From positions 1-64,000 of the forward strand of contig NZ_JPQO01000167.1 in assembly GCF_000773685.1 (NCBI RefSeq): a stretch of DNA of 64,000 nucleotides. Reading direction: 5' to 3'. Under the pieces are notes generated by a model that saw only the letters and a program-made list of their open reading frames with translations, had not been told where the DNA came from and ran no database searches. The position numbers and the translations under genes are program-made. Source of the DNA: Acinetobacter sp. HR7 (GTDB lineage Bacteria; Pseudomonadota; Gammaproteobacteria; Pseudomonadales; Moraxellaceae). Position 1 is the first letter of the stretch. The number at the start of each line of letters is the position of its first letter. Of this stretch, positions 51,702 through 64,000 are shown in pieces.

Positions 51702-53180
<1,479 letters not shown>

Positions 53181-53182
53181 TT

Positions 53183-53212
53183 AAAAAGAGAGCGGCGTCA
53201 GCCGCTCTTTTT
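53183..53212. terminator. Terminator of sucAB-lpd
   Basis: AGAGCGGC (53189-53196) pairs with GCCGCTCT (53201-53208), then TTTT. Confidence 0.88.
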
Positions 53213-53287
53213 ACATTTGATGGTTGTGTTTGTTTGAATAATCATCTAAAAATAAAGATAAGAAATAAGACATCGTTTTAAAAAATT

Positions 53288-53321
53288 CCAATATCGATGT
53301 TGCAGCGCCACAGGATATTGG
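53288..53321 (+). promoter_or_regulatory. Long hairpin in the sucC leader
   Basis: CCAATATC (53288-53295) pairs with GATATTGG (53314-53321), and the loop folds further (TGT/ACA and GC/GC around a 3-nt loop). It ends 41 nt before the sucC ATG. RNA motifs upstream of sucC have been described in pseudomonads, but homology is untested. Confidence 0.45.
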
Positions 53322-53362
53322 ACGCGGTAATAACAAAGTGAAAAGTAGTAAAAGGTCAATCA

Positions 53363-54529
53363 ATGAATTTACATGAATATCAAGCCAAAACTTTATTAAA
53401 AAAATATGGGATGCCAGTGCAAGAAGGTATTCTTGCGACCAATGCCGATGAAGCCGTGCAGGCATTCCAGCAATTAGGTGGAAAATTTGCTGTATTAAAG
53501 GCACAGGTACATGCCGGGGGGCGTGGCAAGGCAGGTGGGGTAAAGGTGGTCAAATCTGCCGAAGAAGCTGCTGAATATGCCAATCAGATTATTGGAACCC
53601 GTTTAGTTACCTATCAAACCGATGCCAATGGCCAACCAGTGAATAGTATCCTGGTGGCTGAAGATGTTTATCCGGTTGAACGTGAACTCTATCTCGGTGC
53701 AGTAGTTGACCGTTCTAGCCGTCGTATTACCTTTATGGCATCTACAGAAGGCGGTGTTGAAATTGAAAAAGTCGCTGAAGAAACGCCAGAAAAAATTATT
53801 AAAGTTGAAGTTGATCCGCTAGTTGGTTTATTACCTTTCCAGGCACGTGAAGTGGCATTTGCCCTGAACCTGAAAGATGGTCAAGTGAACCAGTTTGTCA
53901 AAGTCATGACGGCTGCTTATAAAGCATTTGTTGAAAATGACTTTGCCTTGTTTGAAATTAACCCGCTGTCTGTACGTGAAAATGGTGACATTCTGTGTGT
54001 CGATGCTAAAGTGGGTATTGATTCAAATGCGCTATACCGTTTACCTGAAATTGCAGCATTACGTGATAAATCTCAGGAAAATGAGCGTGAGTTGAAAGCC
54101 TCTGAATTTGACCTGAACTATGTGGCCTTAGAAGGGAACATTGGCTGTATGGTGAATGGTGCCGGTCTTGCGATGGCAACTATGGACATCATCAAACTGT
54201 ATGGTGGTCAGCCAGCCAACTTCCTGGACGTGGGTGGTGGTGCAACCAAAGAACGTGTGATCGAAGCATTCAAAATTATCCTGGCAGATTCTTCTGTACA
54301 AGGTGTCCTGATCAATATTTTTGGTGGAATTGTACGATGCGACATGATCGCTGAAGCGATTATTGCAGCGGTTCAGGAAGTTAATGTCACTGTGCCTGTG
54401 GTGGTTCGCCTAGAAGGCAACAACGCAGAGCTGGGTGCCAAATTACTGGATGAATCAGGTTTGAAATTGATTTCTGCAAATGGCCTTGCCGATGCTGCAG
54501 AAAAAATTGTTGCTGCAGTAAAAGCGTAA
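53363..54529 (+). CDS. sucC: Succinyl-CoA synthetase beta subunit
   Basis: ATP-grasp subunit that makes ATP (or GTP) while converting succinyl-CoA to succinate. It starts [19 protein letters not shown], has the Gly-rich nucleotide loop [13 protein letters not shown], and [13 protein letters not shown] near the C-terminus. The 388 residues are standard. sucD follows after 13 nt. The pair sits between terminators, so it forms its own operon, separate from sucAB-lpd. Confidence 0.97.
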
Positions 54530-54542
54530 GGGAGTATCGAGC

Positions 54543-55433
54543 ATGAGCGTATTAGTTAATAAAGACACTACAGTTTTGGTTCAGGGTTTCACAGGTAAAA
54601 ACGGTACTTTCCATTCAGAGCAGTCGATTGCCTACGGTACTAAGGTGGTTGGTGGGGTAACTCCAGGCAAGGGTGGTACTACTCATCTTAATTTACCTGT
54701 ATTCAATACTATGAAAGAAGCAGTGCGTGAGACTGGTGCAACAGCTACTTCGATTTATGTGCCAGCGCCATTCGTACTGGATTCTATTATTGAATCGATC
54801 GACTCTGGCATTGAGCTGATCGTGGTGATTACTGAAGGTGTACCAACACTGGATATGTTGAAAGCCAAACGTTATCTGGAAACCAATGGCAATGGTACAC
54901 GTCTGATTGGTCCAAACTGTCCGGGTATTATTACCCCTGAAGAATGCAAGATCGGGATTATGCCAGGACATATTCATAAAAAAGGTAAGATTGGGATTAT
55001 TTCGCGTTCTGGCACCCTGACTTATGAAGCGGTTTCACAAACAACTAAATTGGGTCTAGGTCAGTCAACTTGTATCGGTATTGGTGGTGACCCAATTCCA
55101 GGTATGAACCAGATTGATTGCCTGAAACTGTTTGAAGAAGATCCTGAAACTGAAGCGATTATTATGATTGGTGAGATTGGCGGTACCGCAGAAGAAGAAG
55201 CGGCTGAATATATCCAGTCCAATGTCACTAAACCGGTTGTTGGTTATATTGCAGGTGTGACAGCACCGAAAGGTAAGCGCATGGGTCATGCCGGTGCAAT
55301 TATTTCGGGTGGTAAGGGTACTGCGGAAGAAAAATTTGCTGCCTTTGAAAAGGCGGGCATCGCATATACCCGTAGTCCGGCAGAGTTGGGTTCAACTATG
55401 TATCAGGTATTAAAAGATAATGGCTTAATCTAA
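54543..55433 (+). CDS. sucD: Succinyl-CoA synthetase alpha subunit
   Basis: CoA-binding, phosphohistidine-bearing subunit. The N-terminal Rossmann segment [17 protein letters not shown] binds CoA, and the active-site His lies in [18 protein letters not shown]. The 296 residues are slightly longer than the 289 of E. coli. GGGAG precedes ATG 54543. Confidence 0.97.
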
Positions 55434-55451
55434 ACTGTAATAATCAAATAT

Positions 55452-55478
55452 AAAGCCCTCTATATGAGGGCTTTTTTT
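55452..55478 (+). terminator. Terminator of sucCD
   Basis: AAAGCCCTC (55452-55460) pairs with GAGGGCTTT (55466-55474), then a T-run. Confidence 0.9.
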
Positions 55479-55516
55479 ACAACAAATTAACAATAATTTG
55501 GTCATATAGAAAGAAA

Positions 55517-55545
55517 TTGTGAGAAATGTCTCACTTTGTTATAAT
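55517..55545 (+). promoter_or_regulatory. pga promoter with operator-like inverted repeat
   Basis: TTGTGA (55517-55522), 17 bp, TATAAT (55540-55545). GTGAGA (55519-55524) and TCTCAC (55529-55534), 4 nt apart, form a perfect inverted repeat lying across the -35 and the spacer, where a repressor would block polymerase. The predicted transcript start is near 55552, about 30 nt before the pgaA ATG. Confidence 0.75.
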
Positions 55546-55582
55546 GATTGTAAAACTACAATACACAATAAGATATACACAA

Positions 55583-58033
55583 ATGCGAAATTACAAAAAT
55601 CATTATTCATTTGTCTACATGCTGTTAATGGCGGGAATGACTTCCACACCTCTATATGCAGCTATTTCGGATGTTCAACGGCAACAGGTCGTTGAACAAA
55701 TTAAGGCGGGAAAAGCTCAAACAGGACTTAAATTGCTTGCTGATATGGTGCAAAAAGATCCGAGCAATATGACTTTGCTGGCTGATTATATTTTGTTAAG
55801 CAAGCAATACAATCCGCAAGCTTCTCAACAAGATTACAAGCTTAATCACTTAAATTTTTCAACATATCCGGTGTATGGTCAGTTGCCATTAGTGATGCTG
55901 TTGAGAGATCAGGGGAAATTTCAGCTGGCTGAGCAGTATGCGGCAGGCTTTCAAAAACACAGTATCAGTGATATTCCATGGAATTTGTATCGTGGAATAT
56001 TGCTGGCAGAAGGTGGCCAAGCGGAGCAAGCTAAGCAGCGACTCAAACAGGTAGATCAGCAGAAATTAAATGCAGATCAGCTTGCACAATTGGCTTATAC
56101 TTATCGGTTACTTGGACAACCTGTACAGTCATTAGAAAGTGCAAAGAAAGCGATGGCGATCAGCCGCGCTGAAAATGTGCAAGAACAGTATGTACTGGCA
56201 CTTGCAGCTAATGCTGATTATGACAGTGCTAATCAATTCTTACAGCTGAATGGAAAAGGAAAAAGCCAGTTAAAGCATGAAGTTCAACTGATAAAGTTCA
56301 GTCAAAATATTCGTCATGCAATAGACTTTTATCGCGTACAAACGGAACAGGATCAAGGCAAGATTGCCTATACACAGCTTGATGCTGTACTAGCTGAGAT
56401 GCGAATGTATGAAAAAGAATTAGCTGACTATCCAGAGCTTCGCCAGAAATTTTATTACAACTATATTTATGCATTAAGCGCACGTCAGCGATCAAAAGAA
56501 GCACTGGCACAACTTTCCAAATTAAATCAGCCGGTAGAGCAGATGCCAGCATATGCGCGACATGCACTTGCAGATAGCTATCTGCGTGAGCATAAACCTC
56601 AGCAGGCTGAAATACTGTACCGCAGCCTGTTTAAAGAAAAAAATTATGTGGACTATGACGTTTATGCCGGTCTGTATTATAGCTTGATTGAACAGGAGAA
56701 ATTTAAGGCTGCTGATGCACTGATTGAAGAAATGGATCAGCGTTTACCGGTATATTTTTATAGTAGTGCTAAAGGGGTGGACCGCCAGATTCACTGGGAT
56801 CGTGATGAGTTTATTACTCTAAAAGGATTGCATTTCGGTTATAAAAATCAGCTAGATAAAGCGGAGCAATATTTCCAGAATCTAGTGGCTAAATCTCCAG
56901 GTAATCAGAGTTATCTTAATTCTCTGGCAACCATCCAGCGTTGGCGTGAAAAACCTCTACAGGCACAAGCGACTGTATCTTTACTTAATGGCACGGAGCC
57001 AGTAACTCGGGCAACGCGCATCAATAGTATGGAAAATGCTCAAGCCATCACAGATGTAAAGACCTGGCGTGATAGCAATACCGATTTATACACACGAGCA
57101 GAAAATGATACTGGTGTGATCCGTAGCCATAAAGAGCTTCGAGATCGCGATCGTTTCACTATTTCCCATAATAGTCTTTATGCTAAAAGTGATGCAGATG
57201 AACAAAATGAAGTGAATAATCTGAATGGTGCACGTGAGAAACAAAGCTGGACAAGATTAAATACACCATGGTTCTCAGATTATTTCCGGAGTTTTGTGGA
57301 ACATCAATATCGTAGCGGGGAGTATGAAGAAGGAGATCGAGATGATCAGCGTATTGGCTTAGGTTTGGAGTGGGCAAATAAACGCAAATATGCCACGGTT
57401 GCTGTTTCTCAAGCAACCGAAGGTGATCGCTTTGGTGTTAATTTGACCTGGAATCACTGGTTAGATGACCACTGGAATTATGGTATTGGTTATAACAGTC
57501 AAGCAGATATTCCGTTACAAATACAAGATGAGCATGAAGGGCAGTCTTACCGTTTTGATTTGAACTGGCAAAAACATGAATCTACGAAAGCTGGTTTAAG
57601 TTATCAATTTACAGATATTGATGATGGCAATGAGCGCCAAGAGCTTGGTACTTATTTCAAGCAACGTATATTTCAGTCCCCCCATCATTTAACCCATATG
57701 AACTTATATGGTTTCTGGGCAGAAAATAAAGATATAGAAACTGCATATTTCAATCCTTCTTCCAGCTGGAGTGCAGAAGTAGGCTTAGAACATGATTGGA
57801 TTACCTGGCGTAGTTATGACCAATCTTTAACACAACGTTTTTCATTCAACTTGGGTGTATTTGATCAGGAAGACTATGATGCCGGACTGATTTATTTAGC
57901 GAAATACCAGCACCTTTGGAAAATTACTCGAACTTGGTCATTAAATTATGGAGTGTCTTATGGACAGCATCCTTACGATGGTGAAGATGAAAATAGACTA
58001 GAAGCAAGTTTTGGCTTCGAGGGAAGATTCTAA
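55583..58033 (+). CDS. pgaA: PNAG export outer-membrane porin PgaA
   Basis: Exports partly deacetylated poly-beta-1,6-N-acetylglucosamine through the outer membrane. A signal peptide (to about residue 26, ...STPLYA) is followed by TPR-like helical repeats (about 30-480) and a C-terminal beta-barrel of alternating aromatic strands, ending in SFGFEGRF with the terminal Phe that outer-membrane proteins need for assembly. The frame is open to 55526, but that is upstream of the promoter, so ATG 55583 is used. About 816 residues. Its stop overlaps the pgaB start. Confidence 0.95.
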   Translation: MRNYKNHYSFVYMLLMAGMTSTPLYAAISDVQRQQVVEQIKAGKAQTGLKLLADMVQKDPSNMTLLADYILLSKQYNPQASQQDYKLNHLNFSTYPVYGQLPLVMLLRDQGKFQLAEQYAAGFQKHSISDIPWNLYRGILLAEGGQAEQAKQRLKQVDQQKLNADQLAQLAYTYRLLGQPVQSLESAKKAMAISRAENVQEQYVLALAANADYDSANQFLQLNGKGKSQLKHEVQLIKFSQNIRHAIDFYRVQTEQDQGKIAYTQLDAVLAEMRMYEKELADYPELRQKFYYNYIYALSARQRSKEALAQLSKLNQPVEQMPAYARHALADSYLREHKPQQAEILYRSLFKEKNYVDYDVYAGLYYSLIEQEKFKAADALIEEMDQRLPVYFYSSAKGVDRQIHWDRDEFITLKGLHFGYKNQLDKAEQYFQNLVAKSPGNQSYLNSLATIQRWREKPLQAQATVSLLNGTEPVTRATRINSMENAQAITDVKTWRDSNTDLYTRAENDTGVIRSHKELRDRDRFTISHNSLYAKSDADEQNEVNNLNGAREKQSWTRLNTPWFSDYFRSFVEHQYRSGEYEEGDRDDQRIGLGLEWANKRKYATVAVSQATEGDRFGVNLTWNHWLDDHWNYGIGYNSQADIPLQIQDEHEGQSYRFDLNWQKHESTKAGLSYQFTDIDDGNERQELGTYFKQRIFQSPHHLTHMNLYGFWAENKDIETAYFNPSSSWSAEVGLEHDWITWRSYDQSLTQRFSFNLGVFDQEDYDAGLIYLAKYQHLWKITRTWSLNYGVSYGQHPYDGEDENRLEASFGFEGRF

Positions 58034-59841
58034 TGAATATAATAAAAATTAAACTGACACTTGCCCTATTAGGATGCTTAAGTCTATGTGTGAACTATAG
58101 TCATGCTGAAAGTACAGCAATGGATTTGCCCGAAAACCAATTTGTAACTCTTACTTTTCATGATGTAAGGGATGATGTGGCTCGTCGGGGAGATCGTGAC
58201 CAGTATGCAATTAGTACCGAATATTTGGCACAGTATTTTGCATGGTTAAAACGTGAAGGTTGGAAAACCATTACTTTAAAAGATATCCGCCGTGCTCGTG
58301 AGCAGAAAGTTTCATTACCAGAAAAGTCGGTTTTATTGACATTTGATGATGGAGCTTTAAGTGGCTATACCAAAGTTTTTCCTTTGTTAAAGCAATACAA
58401 ACTGCATGCAGTTTTTGCGATTCCAACCAGCTGGATTGGTACCAATCATAAAGATGCAATAGAAGCATATGGTGCCAATAACTTGATGAATTGGGATCAG
58501 ATGCGAGAAATGCAGAGCAGTGGACTTGTTGAGTTTGTTTCACACTCACATGATATGCATCGTGGTGTGCTTGCAAATCCACAGAAAAACATGCAGCCTG
58601 CCGCGACTGCACGAATATATGATTCAAAAAAAGCCCGTTATGAAACGGATCAAGCTTTTAGACAGAGGGTATTGAATGATCTAAAGCGTTCCAAAAATAT
58701 TTTGGAACAGGAGCTTTCGACACCAACCCATGCAATCTTTTGGCCATATGGTGCTGTAACTCCAGAGACGGAAGATATCGCCAAGCAGGCTGGGCTCAGT
58801 ATGTCCTTTAGTTTAGGAACGATGGCACCACTGGCTGATTCAGTCAAAACCTATCAGCGGGCGCTTATTATCAACAATCCTAACCCGGCTGAAATATCCG
58901 AAGCTATGGCTGACTTCTTGTACCATACTAAACAGCCATATATGGAACAGAAGAGTTTCATTCAGTTTAACCTGCAAGACCTGAGCCAGCCAACGCTAAA
59001 ACAGGCAGATGAAAAATTAAGCCAGTTTTTGAATCAATTAGATGCTTTGAAAACCAATCAGTTGATTTTAAAACCAGTGGCTGATTTGGATGGCAATGGA
59101 ACGATTGATGTAGCCTACTTCCCAAATCGGCAGATCAAAATGCAGCAGGATCTGCTGAACCGTACTGTATGGCAGGCACGTACGCGAACTTACCAGCGTG
59201 TATATGCAGAGTTACCGTTGAGTCTAGCCAATCAAGGCTACAATATGGCACAGCTGGTTGAAGACATATTCAAATACAATGGTAACCTGGAAGGGTTGGT
59301 AATTGATGCAGGAAATGAGCTGAACTGTGCAATCGAAACCTCACAGTGGACTGCTGAATGTAAAAAGCAAATCCAGAGCGTCATTGATTTAAAGCAGCAA
59401 TCTGGGCAACGTGCGAAATACTATGCCAATATCAGTAATGTATATCTCGCAGTCTTAAAGATTAAAACGAATAAAAGCATAGGTTTAAAAAAATTATTCG
59501 ATAATTTGTTAGATGACGCTGACTATATCTATCTGGTCGTAGATGAAAACATGAAAAAGGCTGAGCATGATCAGCTACTTAAAAATATTCAGCTACTCAC
59601 ACCTGTACAAAAACAACGCTTGATGGTGGGCTTTGATCTTGCTGGTCAGCTAAACAAAGACCAATGGACTGCTACCCGAATTGCTGATTTACGTAAACAA
59701 GGTATCCAAAAAATCTCACTTGAAAACTATAACTTTAAAAATGCCGGACATGTTCAGCAAAGGCTTTATGCATCTGTCAGTTTAAACAGTAATCCTTTGG
59801 CTTATCGTGATCCATTTAAGGCACAAGGAGAACATCAATGA
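58033..59841 (+). CDS. pgaB: PNAG N-deacetylase PgaB with a degenerate C-terminal domain
   Basis: A periplasmic, probably lipid-anchored deacetylase needed for PNAG export. The short signal ends at LLGC (C15), a plausible lipobox. The CE4 domain is intact: TFDDG (D105, D106), SHSHDMHRG (H171, H176) and FWPYGAVTPE. The second half (about 307-602) aligns with the GH153 hydrolase half of PgaB by position and by ADLDGNGTIDVAYFPN, but the acidic motif expected at its start reads FNLQDLSQP, and the HDD of the active strand is replaced by IDAGNE. I infer this half is catalytically dead, perhaps still polymer-binding. Confidence 0.93.
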   Translation: MNIIKIKLTLALLGCLSLCVNYSHAESTAMDLPENQFVTLTFHDVRDDVARRGDRDQYAISTEYLAQYFAWLKREGWKTITLKDIRRAREQKVSLPEKSVLLTFDDGALSGYTKVFPLLKQYKLHAVFAIPTSWIGTNHKDAIEAYGANNLMNWDQMREMQSSGLVEFVSHSHDMHRGVLANPQKNMQPAATARIYDSKKARYETDQAFRQRVLNDLKRSKNILEQELSTPTHAIFWPYGAVTPETEDIAKQAGLSMSFSLGTMAPLADSVKTYQRALIINNPNPAEISEAMADFLYHTKQPYMEQKSFIQFNLQDLSQPTLKQADEKLSQFLNQLDALKTNQLILKPVADLDGNGTIDVAYFPNRQIKMQQDLLNRTVWQARTRTYQRVYAELPLSLANQGYNMAQLVEDIFKYNGNLEGLVIDAGNELNCAIETSQWTAECKKQIQSVIDLKQQSGQRAKYYANISNVYLAVLKIKTNKSIGLKKLFDNLLDDADYIYLVVDENMKKAEHDQLLKNIQLLTPVQKQRLMVGFDLAGQLNKDQWTATRIADLRKQGIQKISLENYNFKNAGHVQQRLYASVSLNSNPLAYRDPFKAQGEHQ

Positions 59842-61097
59842 TTCAAATTAGTTTAAGTGATGTCGTCTTCGGATTTGCCTTTTTCTATCCGTTATTTATG
59901 GCTTGGATGTGGATCGCGGGTGGTCTTTGGTTCTTTTTTAAACGTGAGCTGAGCCAAAAGGAATTGCCCAAACCTAGTAATGCTGGATGCAGTATCTTGA
60001 TTCCGTGCTTTAATGAGGCAGAGCAGGTTAGACAGACAATCCGTTATGCCATGCAGACCCAATATCCAAAATTTGAAGTGATTGCAATTAATGATGGGAG
60101 TTCTGATGAAACTGGAGAAATTCTGCATGAACTTGCCAGCAAATATTTAAATTTAAGAATAGTACATCTTGCGGATAATCAAGGTAAAGCTTATGCATTA
60201 CGTGCTGGAGCAATGGTGAGCCGTTATGAATATTTAATTTGTATTGACGGCGATGCCTTAATGCATCCACATTGCACCCTGTGGATGATGCATCATTTGA
60301 CGATGTTCCCGCGTGTCGGGGCAGTGACCGGAAATCCACGTATCCTGAACCGCTCCAGTATTCTAGGTAAGGTACAGGTCGGTGAATTCTCTTCTATTAT
60401 TGGTTTGATTAAACGAGCACAACGTACCTATGGGAGGATTTTTACTGTATCGGGTGTTTGTGCCGGTTTCAGAAAAACTGCGCTAAACCGTATAGGTTAC
60501 TGGCGTGATGACATGATTACGGAGGATATTGATGTATCTTGGCGTCTGCAATTTGACCATTGGGATGTGCAGTACGTTCCTCAAGCGTTGACTTATATCT
60601 ATATGCCAGAAACATTTAAAGGTTTATGGAAACAGCGTCTACGTTGGGCACAAGGCGGGATTGAAGTGCTGTTCGCCTATGTGCCAAAAATATTTAAATG
60701 GCGTTTACGCCGTATGTGGCCAATAGCACTAGAGTCCATGATTAGTGTGCTTTGGGCATATACCATGTTTGGTGTATTCGTTTTGTTCTTCTATGGATTG
60801 TTTTTTCCTGTGGCACCAGAGTGGTACATCAATACACTCATGCCACAATGGTATGGTGTAATACTCGGTTCTAGCTGTCTAATTCAATTCATCGTAAGTC
60901 TATGGATTGATCGTCGTTACGATAAAGGACGAATGTTCAGAAGTTATTTTTGGGTAATTTGGTATCCATTATTTTTCTGGATTTTGACCATGTTAACGAC
61001 AGTAATTGCTTTGCCGAAAACCATTTTTAAAACCCAAACCCGAGCACGGTGGACAAGTCCTGACAGAGGCTACCGTGGTGAGACAGAGGTGGAATAA
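59838..61097 (+). CDS. pgaC: PNAG synthase, processive glycosyltransferase PgaC
   Basis: A GT2 inner-membrane synthase polymerising UDP-GlcNAc. One N-terminal helix is followed by the cytoplasmic catalytic domain with AINDGSSDE, CIDGDA, TEDIDVSWR and QRLRWAQGG (the D, DxD, TED and QxxRW motifs), then C-terminal helices at about 305-390. The 419 residues match. It overlaps pgaB by 4 nt (ATGA) and is followed 1 nt later by pgaD. Synthesis normally needs PgaD and c-di-GMP. Confidence 0.96.
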   Translation: MIQISLSDVVFGFAFFYPLFMAWMWIAGGLWFFFKRELSQKELPKPSNAGCSILIPCFNEAEQVRQTIRYAMQTQYPKFEVIAINDGSSDETGEILHELASKYLNLRIVHLADNQGKAYALRAGAMVSRYEYLICIDGDALMHPHCTLWMMHHLTMFPRVGAVTGNPRILNRSSILGKVQVGEFSSIIGLIKRAQRTYGRIFTVSGVCAGFRKTALNRIGYWRDDMITEDIDVSWRLQFDHWDVQYVPQALTYIYMPETFKGLWKQRLRWAQGGIEVLFAYVPKIFKWRLRRMWPIALESMISVLWAYTMFGVFVLFFYGLFFPVAPEWYINTLMPQWYGVILGSSCLIQFIVSLWIDRRYDKGRMFRSYFWVIWYPLFFWILTMLTTVIALPKTIFKTQTRARWTSPDRGYRGETEVE

Positions 61098-61098
61098 A

Positions 61099-61677
61099 AT
61101 GCCGAACAATAACAATAATACTGCGCAGAAGCAGATTAAAATTGCAGAATATATAGAAGTCCCTGCAGCAATCGAAATACCAAAGCTTGAGCTTTCTCAG
61201 ATAGAAGGTGCCGAATTAGATATTCCAGAATATATTGATGTTCCTGAATATGTGAAAGACCGGACTGGTGGATATACCTTAATGACATTAGGCTGGATGG
61301 CCTGGGCGTGGTTGTTTATGCCACTGGTTTCACTTGCTTTATGGTGGTTTCAGTCAAATCTGGTTATAGGTCAAGTATTAAGTGAACATACTTCTTATCA
61401 AGGACTGACTTTAATAAAGTTGACTATATTGATTGTGGTTGCTTTTTTATGTCTATTGATATGGGCCAGTTATAACTGGATTCGTTTTAATGGTGTTGAT
61501 CGTAGATCTGCACCTAAACCAGTAGAACTACAGCAAATTGCATCGAGTTTTGCACTTGATAAACATGCCCTACTGGAAATGGTACAGGCGAAGAATTTAA
61601 CTTTGCACTATAACAGGGAAGGAAAACTTGAGCAGTACGATATTCAAGGTCAAATTATGAAAGTTTCTTCGGCTTAA
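61099..61677 (+). CDS. pgaD: PNAG synthase accessory subunit PgaD with N-terminal extension
   Basis: Small membrane partner of PgaC, forming the c-di-GMP-dependent synthase. Two transmembrane helices (about 70-95 and 110-135) are followed by a cytoplasmic tail. At 192 residues it is longer than E. coli PgaD (about 137) because of a cytoplasmic N-terminus of about 60 residues with repeated motifs (AEYIEVP, PEYIDVP, PEYV). ATG 61099 has GGTGGA upstream. The frame opens inside pgaC to 61006 without support. The 3' end overlaps the convergent hydrolase gene by 23 nt. Confidence 0.88.
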   Translation: MPNNNNNTAQKQIKIAEYIEVPAAIEIPKLELSQIEGAELDIPEYIDVPEYVKDRTGGYTLMTLGWMAWAWLFMPLVSLALWWFQSNLVIGQVLSEHTSYQGLTLIKLTILIVVAFLCLLIWASYNWIRFNGVDRRSAPKPVELQQIASSFALDKHALLEMVQAKNLTLHYNREGKLEQYDIQGQIMKVSSA

Positions 61678-62854
61678 AAATCAATTCGGAGGGGTGTGGC
61701 TGGTAAGGGTCTTCTGGATAATAGCCAATATGCTGCACCCCATTTTCTCTCAATAATTGAATAGTTTCTAAAAGTTCTTCATTCGACAGCTTACGTTGTG
61801 TGTTCCAATCAATAGTCTGAATCTCAAAAATAGTCCGTTTCAATGTTGGATCATATTGGCGGGCTTTCTCAATCAAGTCGAAATAAAACTGTTTCGGGTC
61901 CGTGGCTTTTTCCATATATGGCATTGCCATTACGGCGTTGTAATCATAGTGTTGTAGAGTACTTACTGTGGATTGTGCAAACCACTTTTCGCTTTCAGGA
62001 TTTAGCAGGACAGGGGCATAAGAATTGCGAGCAAACCTGAGATTAGGATGTATTTCTTTTAATTTAAGACTTAATTGTAGGGCAAGGCCATCAAGATAGG
62101 TAGTTTTTGCCTTGGCAAATTTTAATTGATCGGAATGCTCTGGATTACGAAGTAATTTCTCAGCATTTCTAAATCCCCAGCGTTTGTAGACTTGTATGGC
62201 AGAAGCCGAACTGTCTTCAAAGTCATTCAAGGTTATATCGTCGTGGTACAAAATACCATCAACAGTAACTGTGTCCGTGAGAGCTTTATATATCTCATAA
62301 ATATAAATGAAATTTTTGGGGTCAAAAGGTGAGAGGCGGATATAGCCTTTAGTACTTTGATTCGCATGTTCTACATAATTTGCTTGATAATGTTGTGGTA
62401 GTTCCCAAGCCCACATCGGTAGCCACGCATATATTGTTTTAACAGTGGTTTGACTACGAATCTGATCAGTGATGTTTTTAAACAAATCTGCTTTTACAGG
62501 TAGATGAGGATTAGGAAAATAAACCTCATGTGCTGAACCATTCGCATCTGGATCAGCGAAAGCTTGCAGGAAAATTGTATTTGGTTGTACTTCTTGGATT
62601 CTTTTAATTAAATGAGTGATATTCTGCGTTAGTTGTTTTGGATCTGGATCGTAAATATAGTCTATATCCAGATGCATGATCGACATTTCAATTTGTTGAT
62701 CTAACTTATTTTGTTCTGCTGTTGGCGAGTTTGAAGAGAAAGGATTATTTAAGTCATTTGCTGAACTAGAGGCTGGGCTGAGTAAGCTCAAACAAGAAAT
62801 TAAACTGCAACTTATTTTGAATAGTTTTTCTCTAGAAGAAAATTTAATTTTCAT
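61655..62854 (-). CDS. Stand-alone exported PgaB C-terminal-type hydrolase (GH153 / GHL13)
   Basis: A 399-residue protein with a signal peptide (cleavage near SSSA, or a lipobox at LISC). From about residue 55 it matches the C-terminal hydrolase half of canonical PgaB: HLDIDYIYDPDP (61-72), LQAFADPDANG, YFPNPHLPVKADLF, YAWLPMWAW, DGILYHDD (199-206) and the end HIGYYPEDP. It has no deacetylase domain. It should cleave deacetylated PNAG in the periplasm or outside, a role the degenerate half of the neighbouring PgaB probably lacks. Convergent to pgaABCD, with overlapping 3' ends. Confidence 0.85.
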   Translation of the reverse strand: MKIKFSSREKLFKISCSLISCLSLLSPASSSANDLNNPFSSNSPTAEQNKLDQQIEMSIMHLDIDYIYDPDPKQLTQNITHLIKRIQEVQPNTIFLQAFADPDANGSAHEVYFPNPHLPVKADLFKNITDQIRSQTTVKTIYAWLPMWAWELPQHYQANYVEHANQSTKGYIRLSPFDPKNFIYIYEIYKALTDTVTVDGILYHDDITLNDFEDSSASAIQVYKRWGFRNAEKLLRNPEHSDQLKFAKAKTTYLDGLALQLSLKLKEIHPNLRFARNSYAPVLLNPESEKWFAQSTVSTLQHYDYNAVMAMPYMEKATDPKQFYFDLIEKARQYDPTLKRTIFEIQTIDWNTQRKLSNEELLETIQLLRENGVQHIGYYPEDPYQPHPSELIFKPKKLS

Positions 62855-62972
62855 AATGCTATTCCATTAATTATCGTTATTATAGGGAAATGAATAATAC
62901 CTTATCGACATAATGCTTATTTTTATTATTCAAAATAGCATATTTATTTTCAGGAATATGTTTAATTATTGA

Positions 62973-62999
62973 AAAAGGCTTCCGAACCGGAAGCCTTTT
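62973..62999. terminator. Terminator of the flotillin-like gene
   Basis: AAAAGGCTTCC (62973-62983) pairs with GGAAGCCTTTT (62989-62999), 26 nt after the stop codon. Confidence 0.85.
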
Positions 63000-63025
63000 G
63001 TTCCATATCTTGGAAAATAAAAAGT

Positions 63026-64000
63026 TCAGGCTTTTGATTTTAGGCTCTGCGTCATCCCGTTAATATCTCCACCTTGAATCCCCAATTCACTCATCAAGCT
63101 ATCAATAAGGGGTGCCTGGCTGCGATAACGTAGGGCGCTATTCACCACCTGATCGGAGAGGGCAATATTGCCACCTTCATGGTGAGCCTCAGCTCCAGCA
63201 GATGACCCATGCAGACCATTGACTTGTAAAATCTTGATGTCATCAATGTTTTCCATTGGCTTGACACTTTCACGGATAATTTCTGGCAAATATTTCAACA
63301 TTGCTAAACGAATCTGCATTTCCACCTGTTCAGAAGACAAGACATTATTCGCTTCATTCACTGCACGGGTACCTTCTGCATCTACCTTATATTGTTTCTC
63401 CATCGCTTCAGCGAGTAAAACTTTGGCTTCGGCTTCACCTTTCGCTTTCAGGCGAACTTTTTCAGCTTCGGCTTCAGCGGCAATACGCACGGCTTCTGCT
63501 TCATCCGCAGCGGCCTGTTTTCCAGCTTCCGCAGCAACGGTAATCGCAATCGCTTCTTTTTCTGCCTGTTCTTTTGCAGCCACCAGTTCAACCGCCTTTT
63601 GACGTTCTGCCTGCTGGATCTGACGGACTGTTACGACTTCTTCTTCCGCTTTTACTGCCTGTGCACGTGCAAGGTCAGCTTGGGCTTTGGCTTCAGATTC
63701 AGCGCGAGATTTTTCTGCAATGGCAATGGCGCGATCCTGTTCAGCCAGCTCAATGGTTTTCTTTTGCTCAACTTGTGCTTTTTGTACTAGTTGGGCTTTT
63801 TGGATATTTTCATTTTCAACATCGCGTGCTGCGGCAATGCGTTTTAATTCAATTTCACGTTCTGCTGCAATACGCGCTTCTTCCGCTTCCCGTTTTTTCG
63901 CAGCTTCCTGTGCTGCAATTTCAGCAAGCTGTTCAGCACGGCGAATGGCAATTTCACGTTCCTGTTGCAGCTTGGCATATTCTTCTTCACGGATGATCTG
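63026..64000 (-). CDS. Flotillin/YqiK-family membrane-scaffold protein, partial (5' end off the right edge)
   Basis: The frame is open from the stop at 63026 to the right edge (325 codons including the stop). It consists of a long charged coiled coil rich in Glu, Ala, Lys and Arg (IIREEEYAKLQQ..., AEEARIAAEREIEL..., AEAEAEKVRLKAKGEAEA) and a C-terminal flotillin tail. That is the C-terminal part of flotillin/YqiK proteins, which organise membrane microdomains. The N-terminal membrane anchor and SPFH domain must lie beyond 64000. Confidence 0.88.
   Translation of the reverse strand, partial: QIIREEEYAKLQQEREIAIRRAEQLAEIAAQEAAKKREAEEARIAAEREIELKRIAAARDVENENIQKAQLVQKAQVEQKKTIELAEQDRAIAIAEKSRAESEAKAQADLARAQAVKAEEEVVTVRQIQQAERQKAVELVAAKEQAEKEAIAITVAAEAGKQAAADEAEAVRIAAEAEAEKVRLKAKGEAEAKVLLAEAMEKQYKVDAEGTRAVNEANNVLSSEQVEMQIRLAMLKYLPEIIRESVKPMENIDDIKILQVNGLHGSSAGAEAHHEGGNIALSDQVVNSALRYRSQAPLIDSLMSELGIQGGDINGMTQSLKSKA

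Follow-up and report, generated by a model that had tools for sequence, protein, structure and literature searches.

A pga locus of Acinetobacter sp. HR7 in which the hydrolase half of PgaB looks dead and an intact GH153 domain is encoded by a neighbouring gene

In its canonical form, PgaB of the poly-β-1,6-N-acetyl-D-glucosamine (PNAG) systems joins a deacetylase of family CE4 and a hydrolase of family GH153 in one chain. The pga operon in a 64,000-nucleotide stretch of Acinetobacter sp. HR7 (NZ_JPQO01000167.1, positions 1 to 64,000; hereafter the window) encodes a PgaB whose hydrolase half appears degenerate, and a convergent gene beside it encodes a protein resembling that very half. Are the two enzymatic jobs of PgaB divided between two proteins at this locus? 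Judging from the sequences and the models built on them, they probably are: we regard the locus as one for PNAG synthesis and export with a non-cutting PgaB, hereafter PgaB2, and a GH153 protein that would cut in trans. A layout in which the hydrolase half looks dead in PgaB2 and intact in a neighbouring gene seems to be previously undescribed. No description of the stand-alone gene was found in the literature searched, which was covered by title, start of the abstract or passages, and mostly consisted of papers outside subscription.

The residues that matter have been defined in canonical enzymes. In the passages available from Little et al. (2018; PMC5933820), the GH domains of PgaB from Bordetella and E. 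coli can cut deacetylated PNAG on their own, D474 is the proposed catalytic acid, D474 mutants are inactive, and D326, D328, D364, H473 and E585 are needed for activity or binding. The same passages report that the E. coli deacetylase requires its C-terminal half. There and in a passage of PMC7112194, the purpose of the hydrolase half is stated as open, partly because its removal from the fused protein also harms the deacetylase.

The window proteins were aligned with 79 canonical Acinetobacter PgaB (PgaB1) and E. coli PgaB; residue numbers are those of Bordetella, mapped to motifs by our own counting along the printed Bordetella chain. At D326, D328, D364, H473, D474 and E585, the window PgaB has N, Q, D, D, A and a gap, respectively, so that the two residues expected of an active enzyme, the catalytic Asp and its neighbouring His, are replaced by Ala and Asp. 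Across the genus, D474 is found in 79/79 PgaB1, 31/31 stand-alone proteins and 0/75 PgaB2, and the counts for H473 are the same. The 79 PgaB1 come from the 114 genomes that have PgaB1 and cover all 61 that also hold PgaB2. In all 75 PgaB2 a gap stands opposite E585, though this last region aligns poorly, and active-site loops are missing. For the window PgaB, a profile-profile alignment sets DAG opposite the HDD motif (97.7% probability), and Pfam GHL13 matches only amino acids (aa) 314-399, the first 86 residues of the hydrolase half (profile 4-88, E 4e-18). The initial annotation, whose starting position 58939 is the beginning of the C-terminal half of the 58033-59841 open reading frame (ORF), had called this half degenerate. 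The loss of D474 and H473 in both alignments bears this out, with the nuance that D364 survives in the window and in 66/75 PgaB2; Asp is also still present at the D326 column in 51/75. Judged by these residues, the window PgaB lacks the active hydrolase domain that canonical PgaB has fused to its deacetylase.

The fold itself appears to have been kept. An AlphaFold2 model of the window PgaB is of middling confidence (predicted local distance difference test, pLDDT, 72.6; predicted template modelling score, pTM, 0.66). Its C-terminal half compares with the C-terminal domain of E. coli PgaB (4p7q) at Z 24.5 and a root-mean-square deviation of 3.0 over 272 residues, against Z of about 16-17 for unrelated barrels. 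The AlphaFold2 models of this protein and of the stand-alone protein both match the PgaB hydrolase fold; the hydrolase half of PgaB2 is therefore predicted to be a pseudo-hydrolase and not an unrelated domain. Cys occupies the D480 column in 68/75 PgaB2, and the conserved pair C432/C443 could possibly form a disulfide.

The deacetylase half presents the opposite picture. D114, D115, H184 and H189 (E. coli numbering), which we take to be the CE4 metal and base residues of the PgaB deacetylase, are retained in 73/73 full-length PgaB2 (the other 2 of the 75 are truncated where their contigs end) and in 79/79 PgaB1. As read from this alignment, the N-terminal half of PgaB2 is a CE4 PNAG deacetylase with intact catalytic residues. 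A loss of the deacetylase in PgaB1 was also considered, as a motif search missed TFDDG in 74/79 sequences; the idea was dropped because the alignment gave TVDDG-type variants in which all catalytic residues are kept.

In the stand-alone protein, GHL13 spans the entire chain (profile 1-324 of 324, E 5.6e-110, 367.9 bits against a cut-off of 27), and the window copy retains 6/6 of the catalytic residues. E585 is present in 30/31 stand-alone genes, the exception (G168) being cut short. No deacetylase match was obtained in the Pfam and TIGR profile searches. The AlphaFold2 model (pLDDT 80.5, pTM 0.81) has its best Foldseek matches in 4p7o_B (E 1.3e-34, TMt 0.85) and 6au1_A (E 1.1e-33, TMt 0.86), and the Foldseek alignments give 36-38% identity to solved GH153 domains. 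By sequence match, predicted fold and catalytic residues, the protein is a complete GH153 domain, in agreement with the initial annotation, which had assigned the convergent gene to that domain, with an export signal and no deacetylase. The signal ends in an AxA-type site in some aligned relatives and in a lipobox-like Cys in others. The profile search found no third GHL13 match in the genome of the strain (G000; 3.12 Mb, 227 contigs).

How are these genes distributed? A total of 175 Acinetobacter genomes were searched with the PgaB family, the stand-alone protein and the degenerate half, and PgaB2 was found in 75 and the stand-alone gene in 31. PgaB1 occurs by itself in 53 genomes, with PgaB2 in 47 and with both other genes in 14; PgaB2 and the stand-alone gene occur together without PgaB1 in 14, and the stand-alone gene by itself in 3. 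PgaB2 alone and PgaB1 with the stand-alone gene but without PgaB2 were each found in 0/175, and 44 genomes had none of the three. The genes counted all rank high in the score-ordered match lists, and the tallies reconcile: the 131 genomes with any match are the 114 with PgaB1, the 14 with PgaB2 and no PgaB1, and the 3 with the stand-alone gene only. An intact GH153 is therefore present for 75/75 PgaB2 genomes, through the stand-alone gene only in 14 (two of them, G129 and G157, 65% and 80% complete), through PgaB1 only in 47, and through both in 14. The pairing of degenerate PgaB with the stand-alone gene survives the check set for it in the initial annotation, as the gene accompanies PgaB2 in 28/75 genomes, but it is not exclusive: the other 47/75 lack the gene, and all of them have PgaB1. 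In all 28, both genes lie on the same contig, on opposite strands and within 3.4 kb; the wider neighbourhood was inspected in 10 of these genomes, in the window and in 21 named loci. PgaB2 and the stand-alone gene occupy a conserved shared place.

PgaB2 likely depends on an intact GH153 in trans. The pattern in the 75 PgaB2 genomes, each with an intact GH153 from one source or the other, is significant when kinship is ignored (Fisher p 7.2e-8). Moreover, Dollo counting on a PgaB2 tree with 73 full-length rows gives nine PgaB1 losses, all on branches with the stand-alone gene, which make up 38% of the tree length (p 1.6e-4 assuming even placement of losses). We grade the dependence as likely rather than shown because this loss test is post hoc and a pairs test is non-significant.

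Several observations weigh against our reading of the locus, this dependence included. The loss test was made on a gene tree built by a quick method, and the kinship-aware independent-pairs test had 6 pairs and a median p of 0.25; trait b went in the same direction in 0.0 pairs and in the opposite one in 2.8, and did not differ in 3.2. Among the 61 PgaB1 partners, that of G014 is shortened at its N-terminal side by an in-frame TAG. The stand-alone gene of G049 is still intact despite an eroded operon. According to a passage of Little et al. (2018; PMC5933820), biofilm was normal in Y. pestis after the residues equivalent to D364 and D474 had been replaced by Ala, with the caveat of a raised gene copy number. 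Lastly, three genomes of other gammaproteobacterial genera, G773, G666 and G539 (100%, 97% and 99% complete), have a PgaB whose hydrolase half is degenerate or shortened, and GHL13 matches nothing else in them. They appear to be cases of independent loss of the cutting activity; PNAG loci can therefore exist without an intact GH153, and the need is not universal. Searches for the family covered 293 genomes of the order, 369 of the class and 349 of the phylum, in overlapping sets, and confirmed no other stand-alone GH153 beyond Acinetobacter, leaving aside G463 (488-aa frame, kin 669) and G899 (236-aa frame, below the cut-off).

The stand-alone protein could also be a secreted enzyme for matrix dispersal or foraging, like dispersin B, and no part of synthesis, the loss in PgaB2 being a separate event. 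We find this unlikely: the gene is present in 0/53 PgaB1-only genomes, though these would also make PNAG to disperse. A convergent gene with its own export signal would suit a dispersal enzyme, as would the AxA-type signal ends of several relatives and the degenerate PgaB of other genera that lack a GH153 partner; the lipobox-like Cys of other relatives, however, fits a periplasmic or membrane-held protein. The three stand-alone genes without PgaB2 speak on both sides. The gene persists next to sucD where the operon has been deleted (G132, G168) or where erosion has left pgaD and a piece of pgaC (G049), but two of the three look worn, with an in-frame stop in G168 and matches that end at residue 345 of 399 in G132 and G168.

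A different account holds that the PgaB2 hydrolase wore out after a pga duplication, since PgaB1 did the cutting, and that the stand-alone gene is an unimportant leftover copy. It draws on the presence of PgaB1 in 61/75 PgaB2 genomes and on the pace of the C-terminal half. Between close pairs, the ratio of nonsynonymous to synonymous substitution rates (dN/dS) is 0.05-0.19 in this half (13/13 pairs) and 0.04-0.12 in the deacetylase half, and the former outpaces the latter in all 13 pairs. The stand-alone gene gives 0.07-0.17 (6/6 pairs) and the hydrolase half of PgaB1 gives 0.01-0.07 (9 pairs); some dS exceed 1 and the corresponding ratios are rough. Both the PgaB2 C-terminal half and the stand-alone gene are under purifying selection. 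Together with the conserved features new to PgaB2, namely the Cys pair and a C-terminal signature, and with the invariant catalytic residues of the stand-alone gene, this makes simple decay quite improbable. The strong constraint, the D364 kept in most PgaB2 and the predicted TIM-barrel could instead mean that PgaB2 still cuts, through other residues or with another specificity, and that the stand-alone gene has a different target. Such an enzyme would have to work without H473 and D474 in any PgaB2, without the active-site loops and apparently without E585 (poorly aligned region), and the published D474 mutants are inactive in the passages cited above; we give it hardly any credence. The division of labour between PgaB2 and a trans-acting GH153 accommodates these observations best.

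As for the history of the genes, PgaB2, PgaB1 and the stand-alone genes form one clade each in the trees. Because D474 is gone from all PgaB2, its loss suggests a single old event. Descent of the stand-alone gene from Acinetobacter PgaB1 by copying was rejected, as the gene is not nested within PgaB1. Its placement as sister to PgaB1 was compared with one outside PgaB1 and the PgaB of the sister genus, and neither was favoured (approximately unbiased test, p 0.517); therefore, fission of an old PgaB2 and gain from elsewhere both stay candidates, and the gene may have arisen either way. A phage origin was dismissed, as a viral scan returned 39 pattern matches and tblastn confirmed zero relatives. 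So was a plasmid origin: 53 plasmid records, some of them chromosome-sized, match the stand-alone query, and the annotated ones among the 15 listed are fused pgaB.

From these data, we infer enzymatic activities, cellular places, docking and a selection for GH153 supply in trans. PgaB2 would deacetylate PNAG through its intact N-terminal half and guide it to PgaA without cutting. Its pseudo-hydrolase would be kept as a structural part, with probable roles in supporting the deacetylase, in polymer binding and in docking on PgaA. The stand-alone GH153, exported to the periplasm or the cell surface, would act in trans on partly deacetylated PNAG and cut it so that chains are trimmed or cleared; where relatives have a second pga locus, this task could fall to canonical PgaB1. 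That the dead half must stay and the cutting can move would fit the published work, because the isolated domain is active and the E. coli deacetylase needs its C-terminal half. A more tentative and rather doubtful extension is a two-state PNAG machine. In it, the PgaB2 scaffold would work only with a GH153 in trans, from the detached gene or PgaB1, and cutting would be freed from synthesis so that chain length and release are set separately; the gene overlap described next may then set synthesis against cutting at the level of transcripts.

The initial annotation had placed the two activities in two genes under opposite promoters. The two genes stand, given the distribution of D474, whereas separate promoters and independent control gain no support: promoter-like sites are no commoner than in shuffles (19 found, mean of 24.5 expected). 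Terminator-like sites number 13 against 5.6 expected, and the same scan found none at the junction of pgaD and the stand-alone gene. The 3' ends of these two genes overlap in the window and in 16/21 named loci, in the latter by 23-104 bp and most often by 35 bp (10 loci); gaps of 34-293 bp separate them in the remaining 5. The overlap could couple both transcripts as well as part them.

The features of the window are collected in Table 1. On the + strand, sucD, pgaA, pgaB, pgaC and pgaD follow each other, and the convergent gene and a flotillin-type gene lie on the - strand. Among the named loci that share the operon, A. schindleri is nearest (79% identity over the PgaB C-terminal half). The pgaA product scores 347 bits with TIGR03939, below the cut-off of 366.65 for that profile. 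No Rfam match was found in 53000-64000 at gathering thresholds.

Table 1. Positions of the features of the pga locus in the window, and of the degenerate or shortened PgaB halves in other genera
Feature	Position	Strand	Basis
pgaA, outer-membrane PNAG porin; start codon unchecked	55526..58033	+	Pfam PgaA_barrel E 2.8e-41; TIGR03939 E 2.2e-103
pgaB (PgaB2 type), 602 aa; CE4 deacetylase half, predicted intact, and degenerate GH153 half	58033..59841	+	TIGR03938 405 bits, profile 1-366 of 621
Deacetylase domain	58312..58803	+	Pfam Polysacc_deac_1, aa 94-257
Deacetylase motifs TFDDG, SHSHDMH, WPYG	58339-58353, 58540-58560, 58741-58752	+	motif positions
Degenerate GH153 half, aa 302 to end; catalytic residues lost	58936..59838	+	model aligned to 4p7q
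Ala426 in place of the proposed catalytic Asp (D474, Bordetella)	59308..59310	+	alignment, profile-profile alignment
C432 and C443, conserved PgaB2 Cys pair	59326..59361	+	both invariant in 23-sequence alignment
C-terminal signature LNSNPLAYRDPF, absent from aligned canonical PgaB	59782..59817	+	alignment
pgaC, PNAG synthase	59838..61097	+	TIGR03937 564 bits
pgaD; mechanical ORF start overlaps pgaC, real start probably later	61006..61677	+	Pfam PgaD E 4.2e-23
3' ends of pgaD and of the stand-alone gene, overlapping by 23 bp	61655..61677	.	ORF coordinates
Stand-alone GH153 (PNAG hydrolase domain) gene, 399 aa, convergent to the operon	61655..62854	-	GHL13 profile 1-324 of 324
Asp205 of the stand-alone protein, counterpart of catalytic D474	62240..62242	-	alignment
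N-terminal export signal, aa 1-33 of the stand-alone protein, by eye	62756..62854	-	sequence and relatives
Degenerate or shortened PgaB halves, other gammaproteobacterial genera	L255:5861-7543 (G773), L257:5287-6687 (G666), L258:6130-7572 (G539)		

Some further observations concern related loci. The PgaB1 loci (L153-L204) have their own pgaC, lie at a second place and show no match to the pgaA or pgaD of the window; in G043, G058 and G070, pgaC was not seen beside PgaB1. Next to the degenerate PgaB of G773, a 569-aa frame (L255:4149-5858) matches PgaC and then PgaD at its end, an apparent PgaC-PgaD fusion. A mirror case occurs in the sister-genus genome G209 (L217:5554-7485), where a PgaB-like protein no longer has the deacetylase residues (it reads FDEPA and is without the metal His pair) and keeps the GH153 motifs intact. 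No pgaC is present in the 14-kb stretch around it, and the canonical PgaB of that genome sits beside pgaC.

The natural split is of practical use. Deleting one gene would remove cutting alone, and the role of the PgaB hydrolase becomes testable. If a supply in trans is needed, this would explain why PgaB2-bearing Acinetobacter species keep a GH153, and the stand-alone protein would be a PNAG-cutting enzyme that naturally consists of a single domain. Annotation as PgaB is misleading here because both proteins match TIGR03938 above its cut-off: pipelines call both genes PgaB, and neither does the whole job.

Compared with canonical PgaB (E. coli PgaB, Bordetella BpsB; CE4 and GH153), PgaB2 shares the operon position and the two folds, but its hydrolase half is without the catalytic Asp, and the intact copy is a separate convergent gene. 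A known relative is PgaB2 of the second pga ('hms') operon of A. baumannii, which is of the same type by homology. The 609-aa PgaB2 of NZ_CP064203.1, presumably A1S_2161, has AGTTLNC at the HDD site. In A. baumannii, unlike the window, the stand-alone query matches one place each, canonical PgaB1, in the 6 records listed, and no stand-alone gene is present in the 13.8-kb stretch around PgaB2. Two records of about 15 kb labelled as A. baumannii plasmids in PLSDB (NZ_CP123857.1, NZ_CP123859.1) carry pgaB2 and pgaA at one end and are possibly mislabelled chromosome pieces. The passages seen describe two pga operons in this species (PMC9935895, PMC4457973) and note PgaB1 as likely having hydrolase activity (PMC9935895). 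They report that a double pgaB deletion raised PNAG acetylation more than a pgaB1 deletion (PMC9935895), and in those passages on the operons there is no mention of catalytic-residue loss in PgaB2. Passages of PMC7112194 report that pga is partly duplicated in A. baumannii and that some PgaB-type proteins are without the hydrolase domain.

Systems further away resemble the locus in one aspect each. IcaB of Staphylococcus likewise deacetylates PNAG and carries no hydrolase activity in its chain; it has no GH domain at all, according to the passages of PMC7112194, whereas PgaB2 retains a constrained pseudo-domain. As listed in passages of Little et al. (2018; PMC5933820), BcsZ (cellulose), PslG and AlgL are separate periplasmic cutting enzymes encoded with synthesis genes. 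They differ in folds or families and in polymers, and the stand-alone GH153 would correspond to a domain that has come away from an ancestor of the fused type. Dispersin B, finally, is also a stand-alone PNAG-cutting enzyme, but it belongs to GH20 and not to GH153.

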